Shown piece after piece: positions 19,333-30,350 of a stretch of DNA of 64,000 nucleotides. Made by a program: the position numbers and the translations under genes. Source of the stretch: Hyphomicrobiales bacterium (lineage in GTDB: Bacteria; Pseudomonadota; Alphaproteobacteria; Rhizobiales; Xanthobacteraceae). Location of the stretch: positions 1 to 64,000 of the forward strand of contig JAFKKG010000023.1 in the NCBI GenBank assembly GCA_017305715.1, given 5' to 3'. Each line of letters opens with the position of its first letter. Position 1 is the first letter of the stretch. Under the pieces are notes generated by a model that was not told where the DNA came from, searched no databases, and saw nothing but the letters and a program-made list of their open reading frames with translations.

Positions 19333-20181
19333 ATGTCCAAAGCCCCTCCCGCCCCGCCCTCGCTCGCGGTACTGCGCAAGGAGATCGACGAGATCGACGA
19401 GCAGGTCCACCGCCTGCTGATGGCGCGTGGCGACATCATCGATCGGCTGATCCAGGTCAAGGAGACCCAGGAAGTCGGCTCGGCATTCCGCCCGGCGCGT
19501 GAGGCCGACATGATGCGGCGGCTGGTGGAGCGTCATCGCGGCATCCTGCCGATCGACACCATCGAAAGTATCTGGCGCGTCATCATCTCGACCTTCACCT
19601 ATGTCCAGGCGCCGTTCTCGGTGCATGCGGATGTCTCGGTCGGCGAATCCGCGATGCGGGATTCGGCGCGGTTTCATTTCGGCTTCGTGGTGCCCTATGT
19701 GGCGCATTTCAGCGCGCAGGCCGCGGTCGAGGCGGTCTCGAAATCGAAGGGCGATCTGGCTCTCGTCTCGGCGACCTCAAGCCGGACGCCGTGGTGGAAC
19801 GAGCTCGAAGCCGACGGCGCGCCCAAGATCATCGCGCGGCTACCGTTCCTCGAACGCGCCGATCATCCGGCGGCCTTGCCGGTGTTCGTGGTCTCGCGCG
19901 TCGCCGACAATGCGATGGTGACGGAGGTCGAGACCTGGAGCGTGCGCGTCTCCGGCTGGAATGCCGAGATCGCGCGCGCGGTGGCGCCGCTCGCCGAGAT
20001 CGTCGCCGTCCCCGACACTGCCTTCGACGGCGCGGCGCTGCTGGTGTCGATATCCGGCACCGGGCTGGAGAAGATCAAGACCGCCCTGATCGAGGCCGGC
20101 GCATCGGTGCGCTCCACGGCCCTCGTCGGCAGCCATGCAACGCGATATACCGTGCCCCCGAATGGGGCCAAATCCCAATAG
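19333..20181 (+). CDS. chorismate mutase with C-terminal domain
   Basis: 282 residues. Residues about 1-95 are an AroQ-type chorismate mutase helix bundle (LRKEIDEIDEQVHRLLMARGDIIDRLIQVKE, FRPAREADMMRRLVERH), which turns chorismate into prephenate. The remaining 185 residues (FHFGFVVPYVAHFSAQAAVEAVSKSKGDLALVSA onward, ending VSISGTGLEKIKTALIEAGASVRSTALVG) look like a degenerate prephenate-dehydratase/ACT arrangement, but the TRF catalytic motif of prephenate dehydratase is not visible. The protein is therefore probably only a mutase, perhaps with a regulatory C-terminus. It is the first gene of an operon with hisC and a prephenate dehydrogenase, which fits phenylalanine/tyrosine synthesis. 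Confidence 0.85.
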   Translation: MSKAPPAPPSLAVLRKEIDEIDEQVHRLLMARGDIIDRLIQVKETQEVGSAFRPAREADMMRRLVERHRGILPIDTIESIWRVIISTFTYVQAPFSVHADVSVGESAMRDSARFHFGFVVPYVAHFSAQAAVEAVSKSKGDLALVSATSSRTPWWNELEADGAPKIIARLPFLERADHPAALPVFVVSRVADNAMVTEVETWSVRVSGWNAEIARAVAPLAEIVAVPDTAFDGAALLVSISGTGLEKIKTALIEAGASVRSTALVGSHATRYTVPPNGAKSQ

Positions 20182-26082: not shown

Positions 26083-26466
26083 CTACACAACCCGCCGCCA
26101 GCCGTCGACCGACCAGCGCCCTGCGCCGCACACGACGAGTACGAACAGGCCGCCGGCGATGGCGATGTCCTTTTCGAAATGCAACAGTTCGTTGCGAACA
26201 GCAAAATTCGTGTGAAAGAGCCCAGCGGTCGCGAGGCAAAACAGCCCGAGCGCGAGCGCGCCGCACCGCGTGTACCAGCCGGCCGCGATGCTGAGCCCTG
26301 CGGCGAGTTGCAAGGCAATCACCGGCGCCAGCACGAAAGCAGGCGCGCCCATCTTCGCCATGGCGGCCGATGACGCGCTGTAATTGGCGAGCAGGAAGGC
26401 GCCCTCGTGGAGGAATATCCAGGCCAGCAGCAGGCGCCCCATGAGCAGGACGATGTCGTCGCGCAT
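26083..26466 (-). CDS. DoxX family integral membrane protein
   Basis: 127 residues with four hydrophobic segments: LLMGRLLLAWIFLHEGAFLL, FVLAPVIALQLAAGLSIAAGW, RCGALALGLFCLATAGLFH and IAIAGGLFVLVVCGAG. The pattern and the FEKDIAIAGGL motif are typical of DoxX/SURF4-like proteins, which are often in stress regulons and linked to redox balance. Last gene of the MBL-TPR-DoxX set on the minus strand, 81 bases after the TPR gene. It is likely controlled by the ECF-type promoter before the MBL gene. Confidence 0.85.
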   Translation of the reverse strand: MRDDIVLLMGRLLLAWIFLHEGAFLLANYSASSAAMAKMGAPAFVLAPVIALQLAAGLSIAAGWYTRCGALALGLFCLATAGLFHTNFAVRNELLHFEKDIAIAGGLFVLVVCGAGRWSVDGWRRVV

Positions 26467-26547: not shown

Positions 26548-27003
26548 TCAGTTGCTGGCTGATTTGGCGTTGATCGCCTTTTGCAGGTCCTCACGCTCCT
26601 CGCAGCCGCCGGGGCAGAGCTTTGCGAGGACGGCGAGTTGCTCCCTGGCCTTTTCCATGTTGCCGGTCTCGACATAGAGCTCGCCGAGATATTCGCGGGC
26701 GGCCTTGTGATCCGGCTGCATCTCGATCGCCTTGTTGTAGTAGGTCAGCGAAGTCTTGAAATCGCCGGTCTTGCGCAGCGTGAAGCCCATCAGGTTGTAG
26801 ACATCGGCATGCTGAACGTCGTCGGCGAGTTCGCGCAATTGCGCCAGCGCGCCGGCATAGTCCTTGGCCTTGATCTTGGCGCGCACCGAGGTCAGGTCCG
26901 GCGCGTCGGTCGATGTCATGTTGTCGACGGCACGGGCTGGCGAAAGGCCGAGTCCGGCGATCAACGCAAGAGCGGCCAGGGCGGAGGTGAATTTCGTCGT
27001 CAT
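26548..27003 (-). CDS. periplasmic tetratricopeptide-repeat protein
   Basis: 151 residues with a signal peptide (SALAALALIAGLGLSPARA) and two to three TPR motifs: YAGALAQLRELADDVQHADVYNL, MGFTLRKTGDFKTSLTYYNKAIEM, HKAAREYLGELYVETGNMEKARE. A C-terminal CPGGCEEREDLQKAI holds two cysteines (CxxxC). TPR proteins of this size in the periplasm mediate protein contacts; the partner is unknown. It lies 22 bases after the MBL-hydrolase gene and before the DoxX gene, so it is part of the same operon. Confidence 0.85.
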   Translation of the reverse strand: MTTKFTSALAALALIAGLGLSPARAVDNMTSTDAPDLTSVRAKIKAKDYAGALAQLRELADDVQHADVYNLMGFTLRKTGDFKTSLTYYNKAIEMQPDHKAAREYLGELYVETGNMEKAREQLAVLAKLCPGGCEEREDLQKAINAKSASN

Positions 27004-27025: not shown

Positions 27026-28003
27026 TCAGGATTGCGCGAGCGGCGCGAATGCGTAGGCGTTGCCGTCCTTTGTAAACGTGCCGCGGCCGGGGAACGGGAA
27101 ATGCGCGCCGCAGATCATCATCTTGTCGGCGATGACACGATCGATCAGCTTGCGGCGGCTCGTAATCGCCATGGCGCCGTCCTGGTCATAGGCGCCCTGC
27201 CAGTCCGGATGCGGCGCCAGCAGCGCCGGCACATACATGGTGTCGTTCGACGCCATCAATTGATCCTTGCCCGAGGTGACGAGAAACGCCGCGTGGCCCG
27301 GGGTGTGGCCGGGCGCTGCGATCATGCGGACGCCGGGGGCGACTTCGGCGTTGTCCTCGACCAGTTTCCAGTTCTTCCAGGTCGGGAATACGTCCGAGAT
27401 GCGCTTGCCCGCGGGGCGGCGGCCTTCCGCCAGCTTTTCGACACGGCCGGGCTCGGTCCACCAATTATATTCGGTGCTGCTGACGATCAGCTCGGCATTG
27501 GGGAAGACGGCGGCGTTGGTGCCCTTCTCCATCAGGCCCCAGACATGGTCGGGATGGAAATGCGACACCAGGATGGTGGAGATCTTCTCGCGGTCGATCC
27601 CGGCGGCCTTCATGTTGGCCGGCAGGTTGGTGGCGTTGGCCTGCCACTGGCCGACGCCCGACCCGGAATCGATCATGATGTACTTGTCGCCGATCTTGAG
27701 CACGGTCACGGTGAGCGGGATCGGCATGAATTCGGTGGTGAGGCCGGCTTTCGAAAGCGCCTCCTTGGTGTCCTCGATCGAGGCATTCTTGATGAAGGTC
27801 GGATCGTGCGGCTTGCGCCAGATGCCGTCATAGACGGCGGTGACTTCGATCGAACCGACCTTGTATTTGTAGACGCCATTGGCCGGCTCGAGCGGCGCCT
27901 CGGCGTGGGCTGGATTGATGAGTGCAAGCTTCTTGCCGTGCAGCCCGAAGGCTGCGGCGACGGCAGCGGTAGCCAGGACACCCCGGCGGGACATTGACAG
28001 CAT
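27026..28003 (-). CDS. exported MBL-fold metallo-hydrolase
   Basis: 325 residues from the ATG at 28003 (GGGAG ribosome binding site). The N-terminus MSRRGVLATAAVAAAFGL is a twin-arginine-like signal, so the enzyme is probably exported folded. The metallo-beta-lactamase core has the HFHPDH metal motif, followed by AAPGHTPGHAAFLV and CGAHFPFPGRGTF. These give the ligands of a binuclear metal site. The substrate is not predictable (lactones, thioesters and others are known). First gene of an operon with the TPR and DoxX genes and divergent from the ECF sigma factor gene; its promoter region carries a site like that of the sigma gene. Confidence 0.88.
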   Translation of the reverse strand: MLSMSRRGVLATAAVAAAFGLHGKKLALINPAHAEAPLEPANGVYKYKVGSIEVTAVYDGIWRKPHDPTFIKNASIEDTKEALSKAGLTTEFMPIPLTVTVLKIGDKYIMIDSGSGVGQWQANATNLPANMKAAGIDREKISTILVSHFHPDHVWGLMEKGTNAAVFPNAELIVSSTEYNWWTEPGRVEKLAEGRRPAGKRISDVFPTWKNWKLVEDNAEVAPGVRMIAAPGHTPGHAAFLVTSGKDQLMASNDTMYVPALLAPHPDWQGAYDQDGAMAITSRRKLIDRVIADKMMICGAHFPFPGRGTFTKDGNAYAFAPLAQS

Positions 28004-28067: not shown

Positions 28068-28096
28068 GGAGACCGTGGTGATCGGGGATTTATTCG
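28068..28096 (-). promoter_or_regulatory. candidate ECF-type promoter of the MBL-TPR-DoxX operon
   Basis: On the minus strand CGAATA (28096-28091), a 17-base spacer and GTCTCC (28073-28068) stand about 65 bases before the MBL gene start codon. The site parallels the one before the sigma factor gene (GGAATA, 17 bases, GTCTAT), including ATCC before the -35 and a run of C after AATAAAY. Same spacing and shared bases suggest recognition by the neighbouring sigma factor. Confidence 0.5.
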
Positions 28097-28154
28097 GATG
28101 CCGGCAAAGATTTTTCGCTGGCGCCATAACACGACGATTTTTCTTCAAAAATCC

Positions 28155-28183
28155 GGAATAAACCCGGCCGGGCCAAGGTCTAT
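28155..28183 (+). promoter_or_regulatory. candidate ECF-type promoter of the sigma/anti-sigma operon
   Basis: GGAATA (28155-28160), 17 bases, GTCTAT (28178-28183), about 75 bases before the first possible start codon of the sigma factor gene. The GGAAT -35 type is common for ECF sigma factors, which usually drive their own gene. Two related sites lie at 28068-28096 and 30173-30201 on the other strand. Confidence 0.55.
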
Positions 28184-28256
28184 CTAGCTGTCACAGGTTC
28201 GTAACCGGTCATCCGGGGCCGCGCCGAAAGACAGAATAACGAGGCAGAACCACGTC

Positions 28257-29042
28257 ATGACGAGATCGCAGGCCGCGTACGGCAAGGCGCAGGAACCGTT
28301 GCTCGACGTACTTATCGCACTCGCAGCCCGGCTTGCCGGCGCGGGCAGGAATTTCGGACTTCGCGCGATGGCGGCCGGCGCCAGCGATGGCTTTCGTCAT
28401 GCGACGCGGCCCGGCACCCGTGAAGCCAAACCGGCCGCCAACGCGTCGGACCGCGCGGATGCCACGGCCAGCCGTCGATCGGCCGGCAGCAACGACAAAT
28501 ATGGCCGGTTCCAGCGCGAGATCGTGCCGCATCTGGATGCGGCCTATAATTTCGCGCGCTTTCTCAGCCGCAACCCCGATGCGGCCCAGGACATCGTGCA
28601 GGACAGTTTCTTGCGCGCCTATCGGGGCTTCGATGGCTATCAGGGCGGCGACGCCCGCGCCTGGATCTTCTCCATCGTGCGCAACTGCTATCACAATTGG
28701 TTGCTGGAAGGCCGACGCAAGGCACGGCTGGAGGTTGACGTCCATCACCGCGACGATGCCGCCGATTTTTCCGTCGACGACGTGCCCTCCGATGACGACA
28801 CGCCGGAAGCGGCCCTGCTGCGAAGCTCGGAGGCCGGTAAGGTGCGCAGCGTTCTCAATTTGCTGCCGCGCGCCTTGCGCGAGGTGCTGGTGCTGCGCGA
28901 ACTGGAAGGGTTGTCCTATCGCGAAATCGCCCAGACGGCGGCGTTGCCAATCGGCACCGTGATGTCGCGGCTGGCCCGCGCGCGCGATCACTTTGCGGCC
29001 GTATGGCACAGCCAGGCCAGGCTGCAGGAGGAACGGAAGTGA
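28257..29042 (+). CDS. ECF-type RNA polymerase sigma factor
   Basis: 261 residues from the ATG at 28257. The core starts near residue 83: sigma region 2 (FQREIVPHLDAAYNFARFLSR, DAAQDIVQDSFLRAYRGF, ARAWIFSIVRNCYHNWL) and region 4 (LPRALREVLVLRELEGLSYR, EIAQTAALPIGTVMSRLARA). There is no region 3, as in ECF factors. About 80 residues before region 2 are unusual for the family (ECF factors are often 170-200 residues); translation might start later, for example at the ATG at 28368. The stop overlaps the anti-sigma start (GTGA). A zinc-type anti-sigma factor next door points to a redox or envelope stress signal. Candidate self-regulated promoter at 28155-28183. Confidence 0.9.
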   Translation: MTRSQAAYGKAQEPLLDVLIALAARLAGAGRNFGLRAMAAGASDGFRHATRPGTREAKPAANASDRADATASRRSAGSNDKYGRFQREIVPHLDAAYNFARFLSRNPDAAQDIVQDSFLRAYRGFDGYQGGDARAWIFSIVRNCYHNWLLEGRRKARLEVDVHHRDDAADFSVDDVPSDDDTPEAALLRSSEAGKVRSVLNLLPRALREVLVLRELEGLSYREIAQTAALPIGTVMSRLARARDHFAAVWHSQARLQEERK

Positions 29043-29839
29043 ATACCGCCACTGCCCGACCCTGCTCCGAGTGGGAACTGATGCTGCACGGTTTTGTCGA
29101 CAACGAACTCGACGCCGCGCATTCCCTTCAGATCGAACGGCACATTGCGACCTGTCCGCATTGCGCCCAGCAACTGGAAAGCCTCAAAACCTTGAAACAG
29201 CGGATCGCTCAGCCGGGCGTTCATTGGCGCACGCCGGATCACGTCAGGGCGCAGGTCCTGGCGGCGATCGCGCAGGAGGCGGCCCAGCCCGCGCGCGTAT
29301 CGGCGCCCCGAGGCTTCAGCGCGCTCGAATTCGTCAGGAAATGGCTGTTCGTGCCGTCGCTGGCCGCGCTCGCCGCCAGCCTGTTCCTGGTGATCGGGCC
29401 GATGAACGATCGCTCGACCGTCAGCGACGAGGTCGTCGCGAGCCATGTCCGCTCGCTGCTGGTCGATCATCTCACCGATGTCGCGACCTCCGATCAGCAT
29501 ACGGTAAAGCCCTGGTTCAACGGCAAGATCGATTTCGCGCCGCCGGTGGTCGATCTGGTGCGCGAGGGATTTCCGCTGGCCGGCGGCCGTGTCGATTATA
29601 TCGGCGGCCGCGTCGTCGCCGCTCTGGTCTACAAGCGGCAGTCGCACGTCATCAATCTGTTCGTCTGGCCGGCGCAATCGGACGCAGCGGCTGCAACCGT
29701 GCGAACCGCCTCGTCCCGCGACGGCTACAATCTCGAGAACTGGCAGGCAGGCGGCCTGAACTTCTGGGCCGTTTCCGACGGCAATGCCGACGATCTCGCA
29801 CGCTTCCGGGATGCGTTTATCAACCGGACTTCCAAATAA
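29039..29839 (+). CDS. zinc-type anti-sigma factor (zf-HC2), membrane anchored
   Basis: 266 residues from GTG at 29039, overlapping the sigma stop codon by four bases. The N-terminal anti-sigma domain has the zinc motif His-x3-Cys-x2-Cys in ERHIATCPHCAQQLE, preceded by HGFVDNELD, a classic ZAS pattern. A single membrane segment (LFVPSLAALAASLFLVIGPM, about 105-125) leads to a periplasmic domain of about 140 residues with DHLTDVATSDQHTVKPWFNG and GGRVDYIGGRVVAALVYKRQ, a pattern seen in many ECF-linked membrane anti-sigma factors. It should hold the sigma factor inactive until a signal in the cytoplasm (oxidation of zinc thiols) or periplasm releases it. Confidence 0.9.
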   Translation: MNTATARPCSEWELMLHGFVDNELDAAHSLQIERHIATCPHCAQQLESLKTLKQRIAQPGVHWRTPDHVRAQVLAAIAQEAAQPARVSAPRGFSALEFVRKWLFVPSLAALAASLFLVIGPMNDRSTVSDEVVASHVRSLLVDHLTDVATSDQHTVKPWFNGKIDFAPPVVDLVREGFPLAGGRVDYIGGRVVAALVYKRQSHVINLFVWPAQSDAAAATVRTASSRDGYNLENWQAGGLNFWAVSDGNADDLARFRDAFINRTSK

Positions 29840-29843
29840 CGAA

Positions 29844-29875
29844 AGGGCGGATCGAGGCTTTGCCCGATCCGCCCT
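29844..29875. terminator. bidirectional terminator-like hairpin
   Basis: An 11-base perfect stem AGGGCGGATCG/CGATCCGCCCT with a 10-base loop lies 4 bases after the anti-sigma stop, between two convergent genes. On the minus strand it is followed by TTTCGTTATTT, a modest T-rich tract. It probably ends transcription from one or both sides. Confidence 0.6.
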
Positions 29876-29896
29876 CCACTTCCGTCACTTCGCCGG

Positions 29897-30124
29897 TTAC
29901 TTGCGCGCCTTGGGATGCCGCGCGGGCAGCGGGTGACGCATGATCATTCGCGGCGCCATCGCCATCGCATCGGCCGGCGGCCGCGAGGTGCCGATGCCGA
30001 GATCGCCGTTGGGATAAACGAATGCGAACATTCCGGGCTCATCGATCATGTGCGACTGCGCCGAAGCGGGCGATGCGATCAGCGCCAACAGGACAGCCGC
30101 GCCGAGAAATTTGATCTTGGTCAT
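29897..30124 (-). CDS. small secreted protein of unknown function
   Basis: 75 residues from the ATG at 30124, preceded by GAGGAGAAC. The signal peptide MTKIKFLGAAVLLALIASPA ends at ASAQ, leaving a mature protein of about 52 residues with FAFVYPNGDLGIGTSRPP, a Met/Ala/Pro-rich middle (PADAMAMAPRMIMRHP) and a basic C-terminus (RHPKARK). I do not recognise a family. It is convergent with the anti-sigma gene and its upstream region has a GGAATG-N17-GTCTTG site like the ECF promoters, so it may be a member of the same regulon. Confidence 0.7.
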   Translation of the reverse strand: MTKIKFLGAAVLLALIASPASAQSHMIDEPGMFAFVYPNGDLGIGTSRPPADAMAMAPRMIMRHPLPARHPKARK

Positions 30125-30172
30125 TGATGTTCTCCTCATTACCGACCCACATCGAAGTGGATCGTCAGAGAA

Positions 30173-30201
30173 CAAGACCACCGTCGCTGCGGCGACATTC
30201 C
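30173..30201 (-). promoter_or_regulatory. candidate ECF-type promoter of the small secreted protein gene
   Basis: On the minus strand GGAATG (30201-30196), 17 bases, GTCTTG (30178-30173), about 50 bases before the start codon at 30124. The -35 keeps GGAAT and the -10 keeps GTCT of the site before the sigma factor gene, with identical spacing. This is the third site of this type within 2.2 kb. Confidence 0.45.
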
Positions 30202-30350
30202 GCTCGCCGCCATCACGCTTCGTCGATCATTATTTTACGGCGCGCGCGGGGATGTGATGGAATGCAGGGGCGTGATTAACTTTCGTCGCCCCGGCGAAAG
30301 TTTCAGCCCATTCATGACGTCATCCCGGCGCTGCGCCAGGACGGCAAGAA

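Follow-up and report, generated by a model that had tools for sequence, protein, structure and literature searches.

Organization of the Locus

The stretch of DNA analyzed here comprises 64,000 nucleotides (nt) of contig JAFKKG010000023.1 from a Hyphomicrobiales bacterium (assembly GCA_017305715.1) and is referred to below as the window; the genome holding it measures 7.45 Mb in 51 contigs. On its forward strand the window encodes an extracytoplasmic function (ECF) sigma factor (28257..29042) and an anti-sigma factor (29039..29839), the two genes overlapping by 4 nt. Divergent from this pair, on the reverse strand, lies an operon for an exported hydrolase of the metallo-beta-lactamase (MBL) fold (27026..28003), a tetratricopeptide repeat (TPR) protein (26548..27003) and a DoxX membrane protein (26083..26466). 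A gene for a 75-residue secreted protein (29897..30124) is likewise found on the reverse strand.

An earlier note on this DNA had described three promoter-like sites of ECF type, all with a spacer of 17 nt and 50-75 bases ahead of a start codon, and had joined the genes behind them in one regulon. All three sites are indeed present. GGAATA-N17-GTCTAT (28155..28183, forward strand) precedes the sigma/anti-sigma operon, 73 nt ahead of the ATG at 28257, and CGAATA-N17-GTCTCC (28096-28068, reverse strand) precedes the MBL-TPR-DoxX operon, 64 nt ahead of the ATG at 28003. The third site, GGAATG-N17-GTCTTG (30201-30173, reverse strand), stands 48 nt ahead of the ATG of the small gene at 30124; two of the distances are thus as described, and the third is close to that range.

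Taken alone, the number of such sites in the window is weak evidence against chance: there are four copies of GAAT-N18-GTCT where 1.33 would be expected, and 7 of 100 shuffles had at least as many. The fourth copy (19463-19489, reverse strand) lies within an open reading frame of the opposite strand, the product of which we take, from its unscanned translation, to be a chorismate mutase; this copy looks like a chance match and was set aside as a promoter. Genome-wide, GGAAT-N18-GTCT is present in 36 copies, or about 0.0003 per strand-matched upstream region of 120 nt. The reversed pattern has 5 copies; the difference was given no weight, since that pattern contains TAA and is depleted in coding DNA. 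The sharper pattern GAATAA-N16-GTCT occurs exactly twice in the 7.45-Mb genome (reversed control, 0); both copies lie between the divergent MBL and sigma genes, and each gene has one of them pointing towards it. The site of the small gene, with its GGAATG, falls outside this sharper kind. It is their placing and their conservation that set the sites apart from chance.

Conservation of the Divergent Promoters

When related genomes were scanned for the box upstream of the same genes, a check that the earlier note had proposed, GAATA-N17-RTCT turned up before sigma at 15 of the 19 related loci. For the MBL gene we used the best 80 of 151 loci, fetched with an alignment of seven MBL proteins, and divided them by the presence of a TPR match above 60 bits closely 3' of the MBL gene (34 loci with, 46 without). 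Within 650 nt upstream of MBL, the pattern occurs at 26 of the 34 TPR-linked loci and at none of the 46 others. The reversed pattern gave no match, and shuffles led to expectations of 0.07, 0.09, and 0.06. Spacing is similarly restricted: in a scan of spacers of 10-24 nt, all matches upstream of MBL have 17 nt, with none at 10-16 or 18-24, and upstream of the sigma gene there are 15 matches at 17, one at 22 and two at 24.

All three sister loci in the window's genus have the site ahead of sigma; ahead of MBL they read AGAATA, AGAATA, and CGAATA. The gene order MBL, TPR, DoxX, often with a divergent sigma/anti-sigma pair, recurs in Rhizobium, Methylobacterium, Bosea, Devosia, Aestuariivirga and others, and in Microvirga the sigma pair is placed behind DoxX. 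MBL copies (52%) are also present in G213. What comparison of the loci establishes is that the boxes come in pairs, with a given spacing, and go together with the sigma and MBL genes; on these grounds two of the three predicted promoters, those of sigma and MBL, are secure. Both are very probably promoters of the neighboring sigma factor.

Separated Genes and Plasmids

A search in trans for GGAATAA-N16-RTCT covered 22 genomes of the 80 loci, the Mesorhizobium loci L063 and L066 not being included. It returned 76 matches, their number ranging from zero to six in a genome, where the reversed pattern returned 22, a comparison that calls for the same caution with regard to TAA in coding DNA. One genome (L064) gave no match, because its two sites begin with A. 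In all nine Mesorhizobium genomes searched, the site stands ahead of the MBL operon and ahead of one sigma gene (39-43% identical to that of the window), and in eight of the nine the fetched MBL flanks hold no sigma match. Likewise, the MBL and sigma sites of Labrys lie on two contigs (L155, L219). That the site accompanies MBL and sigma even when they are unlinked fits the prediction of a shared regulator. A promoter kind common to the sigma gene and the divergent MBL-TPR-DoxX operon is thus supported by fixed spacing, in several families, and also where the genes are apart.

Six of the nine Mesorhizobium genomes have a further site before a gene for a DUF680-type small secreted protein, apart from the MBL operon (L156, L160, L162, L211, L212, L216). 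DUF680 was confirmed by Pfam for three sequences, namely that of L160 and two that head MBL operons (L065, L103). Plasmid pWSM1497 is annotated with the gene order sigma, anti-sigma, DUF680, DUF680, MBL, TPR, DoxX, and sites are located upstream of the sigma gene and of the first DUF680 gene. All five plasmids with an MBL gene at an E-value of 1e-60 have a related sigma gene no more than 2 kb away; a plasmid search at 1e-10 returned one Sinorhizobium record, Sinorhizobium sp. B11. A plasmid of Rhizobium leguminosarum Vaf10 (L236, 2807-4187) carries both divergent boxes before its sigma gene and an IS5-like element at the position expected for MBL; no MBL gene is among the matches listed for this record.

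In eight Rhizobium-type genomes (L166, L168, L171, L205-L209), GGAATAA-N16-GTCT precedes a gene for a PF03640-type secreted protein, an assignment from one scanned protein, and a sigma gene 27-32% identical to that of the window, which we take to be a relative of rpoE1. RpoE1 of Sinorhizobium meliloti is described as activating its own operon, the first gene of which encodes a lipoprotein (PMC6180224); for this reason the Rhizobium sites are probably RpoE1's own promoter, and they were set aside.

The Small Secreted Protein Gene

The 75-residue protein has a signal peptide, recognized by eye, and a core IDEPGM(Y/F)AF..PNGDLGIG; it gave no match in Pfam or NCBIfam. Its earlier description as methionine-rich does not extend to the family, as the methionines are not kept in relatives (eight sequences), in which the core IDEPGM(Y/F)AF largely is. 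Members occur in 52 of 146 genomes of the window's genus at an E-value of 1e-4. At 22 places in 20 loci, GGAAT-N18-GTCT is exact in nine (the window included) and present as a one-base variant in seven, six of which have CTCT. Twelve of these 16 exact or near-exact places belong to 11 genus genomes in which the best match to the window sigma factor is at most 42% identical or absent, and three of the 11 (G119, G150, G168) have no sigma match at an E-value of 1e-25. The comparison indicates that the promoter of the small gene is conserved within this gene's own family and does not require this sigma factor.

Upstream of the small-gene site lies a conserved box, CGACGAAGCGTGAT (30212..30225, reverse strand). 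In the form TCG(C/A)CGAAGCGTGAT, with consensus TCGCCGAAGCGTGAT, the box is kept before small-family genes (L134-L150, L200). Among 19 rows of the alignment that have GGAAT, GTGA(T/A) is separated from it by 9-10 nt in six and by 19-20 nt in 13; no gap outside these two classes fits, and L137 and L150 carry variants of the box. Because the two classes are one helical turn apart, the box may be an activator site. The small gene adjoins DUF2125 in ten loci, in nine without the sigma gene (L137, L139, L140, L144-L148, L150) and in the window with it.

All four sampled genus genomes with a sigma factor of at least 66% identity (the window included) carry a small-family gene with GGAAT-N18-GTCT about 4 kb or less from sigma. 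Of five sampled genomes with a sigma factor of at least 59% identity, four have the MBL module, and the same four have a nearby small-family gene with the box; in the fifth, G154, a weak match to the small family (35.5%) is located some 2.2 kb beyond the sigma gene. Furthermore, in G171, G148, and G215 the DoxX side of the module holds a small-family gene behind GGAATA-N17-GTCT. It is about an even bet, from these comparisons, that the small-gene promoter of the window is read by this sigma factor. In the one-regulon proposal, the part that joins the sigma gene and the MBL operon is supported; the promoter of the small gene is conserved as well, mostly in genomes without a close relative of the sigma factor. 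In G148 (L200, 5716, reverse strand) a perfect GGAATAAA-N15-GTCT is also seen near the module, with an open reading frame of 76 residues downstream.

Lineages of the Sigma Factor

In a tree of 86 sigma rows, with the site counted as (A/C/G)GAATA-N17-RTC within 600 nt and bootstrap support not settled, the window sigma factor falls on a side of 75 rows. One clade on this side is without the site in 21 of 22 rows, the sole site-bearing row being L076, beside MBL; the other 53 rows have the site in 44 cases. L025-L027 are among the rows without it. Within the window's own genome, the next sigma match is 41% identical.

The 22-row clade, seen as a second sigma/anti-sigma pair about 35-42% identical, is found behind a cupredoxin-like gene (L186-L195, L198, L041-L049), presumably encoding a cupredoxin as its translation was read by eye. 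Some sigma match at an E-value of 1e-25 is present in 109 of the 146 genus genomes, most of them 35-45% identical and taken as this second clade. In three of 11 genus loci (L191, L193, L198) a small-family gene lies within 1.5 kb of the second-clade sigma gene, and these three were chosen for a further look owing to that gene. A link between the small-gene promoter and the second clade was considered, and the clade proved too widespread for its presence to tell much.

Proteins of the Module

Regions 2 and 4 (residues 92-151 and 195-245) are the only domains detected in the sigma factor, above the Pfam cut-offs of Sigma70_r2 and Sigma70_r4_2; the TIGR02937 score is 78.3 bits for a cut-off of 42.9. 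Its N-terminus of about 80 residues is poorly conserved, and most ortholog matches start near residue 80.

The anti-sigma factor consists of a zinc-finger domain (zf-HC2), a membrane segment recognized by eye and a periplasmic domain. zf-HC2 was detected in 14 of 15 members of the anti-sigma set A2, and L075 was left out of the alignment owing to a stop within its stretch. In the 15 aligned sequences, H35, C39, and C42 of the zinc finger are nearly invariant, and D152, H154, K157-P158-W159-F160, and H203 of the periplasmic domain are invariant or nearly so. The profile matches the solved chains of RsiW and RsrA in its N-terminal part only. The same alignment shows no conserved cysteine in the periplasmic domain, which speaks against a trigger by thiol oxidation in the periplasm; oxidation might still act on the zinc site in the cytoplasm.

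The hydrolase, assigned to the MBL fold by Pfam, has by eye a twin-arginine start and a complete set of dizinc ligands, and R7 and R8 as well as H149, H151, D153, H154, H234, D255, and H302 are invariant in seven of seven sequences. Its nearest solved chains are 7y7u, organophosphorus hydrolase and methyl parathion hydrolase, with lactonases and a chain named MBL-fold hydrolase also among them, and by sequence it shares the MBL fold of these hydrolases and of the AidB-type lactonases. In contrast to members of the latter family, it scores under the cut-off of the AidB-type N-acyl homoserine lactone (AHL) lactonase model NF047979 (156 against 360 bits), and it also stays below that of the subclass B3 metallo-beta-lactamase model NF033105 (39.6 against 240 bits). 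The TPR protein (Pfam TPR) is probably periplasmic, given a signal peptide recognized by eye, and DoxX (Pfam DoxX) is the usual third gene of the operon in relatives.

Discussion

We consider it likely that the ECF sigma factor, kept in check by a zinc-finger anti-sigma factor in the membrane, directs transcription of its own operon as well as of the divergent MBL-TPR-DoxX operon. At rest, judging from its family, the anti-sigma factor would hold the sigma factor; a signal read by the conserved periplasmic domain would set the sigma factor free, and RNA polymerase carrying it would start at both divergent promoters (GGAATA-N17-GTCT). The sigma factor would in this way amplify itself and raise the amount of the hydrolase set in the envelope. 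It is an inference that this sigma factor reads the boxes and that it is released by the anti-sigma factor, and so is the function of the proteins.

Several observations weigh against this reading. Many of the loci are close kin, so that the counts are not independent samples. Eight of the 34 TPR-linked MBL loci miss the strict pattern: in L074 and L103 the site lies farther upstream, ahead of DUF680-type genes, in L072, L075, L076, and L079 there is GGAATAA with an altered -10 element, and in L082 and L112 no site was found upstream. The misses ahead of sigma (L072, L075, L076, L077) carry GGAATAAA, again with an altered -10 (L271 is the same locus as L076, and L040 the same as L077). At L025-L027, from the same family, a sigma factor 53-56% identical is encoded with an anti-sigma factor, yet there is neither a site nor, in the surrounding 1.5 kb, an MBL gene. 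Conversely, the sigma factors beside MBL in G138 and L076 are only 35-38% identical and boxes are present on both sides (in G138 the identity is 38% and the -10 is GATC); the promoter therefore follows the module more closely than it follows a single sigma lineage. The sigma gene of G154 (L273, 4136-4678) encodes a product 60% identical to that of the window and has no anti-sigma or MBL gene nearby, and is possibly a remnant or a freed sigma factor. Finally, none of the sites of a Rhizobium genome (L058/G267), that of MBL among them, was seen to be followed by a sigma gene, and many of the remaining single matches to GGAATAA-N16-RTCT are without a clear target.

As an alternative, another ECF sigma factor of the cell, and not the neighbor, may recognize the paired boxes. 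In its favor, sigma factors from two clades are encoded next to MBL together with boxes of one kind, and Rhizobium RpoE1-like operons also carry GGAATAAA-N15-GTCT. We nevertheless regard this as unlikely, as the site precedes the sigma gene itself and goes along with it when unlinked, the next sigma match in the window's own genome is distant, and the other clade is nearly devoid of the site, with its single exception located beside MBL. Binding sites of a transcription factor in place of -35 and -10 elements are less likely still: the boxes form no palindrome, they have a single orientation towards each gene, their spacing upstream of MBL is fixed, and they fit the -35 GGAATA and -10 GT reported for the ECF26 group (PMC6180224, PMC6527743). 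Chance resemblance, to which the shuffles of the window might seem to leave some room, is ruled out for the sigma and MBL sites by the genome count, the conservation in relatives and the controls, and is practically negligible as an account of the whole.

For the small gene, the matter is more evenly balanced. There is a slightly less than even chance that its promoter belongs to another regulon, read by another sigma factor with an activator at the CGAAGCGTGAT box, and is placed here by the usual DUF2125 neighborhood. The near-exact places in 11 genomes without a close sigma relative agree with this, as do the nine loci in which the gene adjoins DUF2125 and no sigma gene. Moreover, GGAATG-N17-(G/C)TCTTG is unlike GGAATAAA-N15-GTCT, and the upstream box with its two gap classes is, by eye, absent before the sigma and MBL sites. 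The three genomes with a small-family gene and GGAATA-N17-GTCT on the DoxX side of the module speak for this sigma factor instead, as do the small secreted DUF680 proteins of Mesorhizobium that sit behind the same site.

The class of promoter is already known. ECF26 sigma factors have the consensus -35 GGAATA and -10 GT (PMC6180224), to which the sigma and MBL boxes conform; the window sigma factor would then be their reader. The ECF26 members RpoE1 and RpoE4 of S. meliloti (PMC3511301, PMC6180224, PMC6527743) resemble the present system in their promoter, in the sigma-anti-sigma operon with self-activation, in a membrane anti-sigma factor with a periplasmic domain, and in having exported targets nearby. 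They differ in what they control, which is the sulfite oxidase SorT with a cytochrome and pseudoazurin, or a lipoprotein, and their signal is sulfite. A Pfam scan of ten window proteins (24.1-32.2 kb) found no sulfite-oxidizing enzyme, such as is linked to some members of the ECF26 group. Haemophilus influenzae RpoE2 and Neisseria SigE are ECF sigma factors that also control a DoxX operon, in envelope stress caused by hypochlorite (PMC7907618). In contrast to the window, the anti-sigma factor of RpoE2 is small and cytoplasmic, and the partners are msrAB and DUF genes, with no MBL or TPR mentioned in the available part of that report (PMC7907618). EcfQ and EcfF of Bradyrhizobium answer reactive oxygen; the boxes given for them, GTAAC(g,a)-N14-15-(t,c)CG for EcfF and GCAGAC and TAACAAT for ecfQ, do not fit the window sites (PMC3420878). 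The same holds for other rhizobial or Brucella ECF boxes from the literature.

An output set of MBL, TPR, and DoxX under an ECF sigma factor was not found described in the open-license literature. We judge the locus to be a real, conserved regulon of a known promoter class, with an output set for which we found no description. It is possible, at somewhat below even odds, that we are looking at a widely shared and undescribed envelope response of the Hyphomicrobiales, in which an exported zinc hydrolase, a TPR protein and DoxX answer to a single ECF sigma factor together with lineage-specific tiny secreted proteins, the latter being the IDEPGM family in Bradyrhizobium-like genomes and DUF680 in Mesorhizobium. 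If true, this would give DUF680 a regulatory context, of which we found none in the open-license literature. What began as a guess from one sequence is now a conserved regulon open to testing, and its promoter rule is applicable across many rhizobia; in addition, DUF680, a family of unassigned function, and the exported MBL hydrolase are linked to a common kind of regulator.

What the signal is, and what the hydrolase acts on, can now be asked directly. The oxidants that the earlier note had put forward as a possible signal gained no support from this analysis. Leads for the signal are sulfite, from the ECF26 relatives (PMC3511301), and hypochlorite, from the other DoxX regulons (PMC7907618). 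A further lead comes from G171, where DoxX is separated from the small secreted protein gene by genes for a cytochrome c' and a cytochrome c (L199, 4054-5495), a hint at a redox task of the module.

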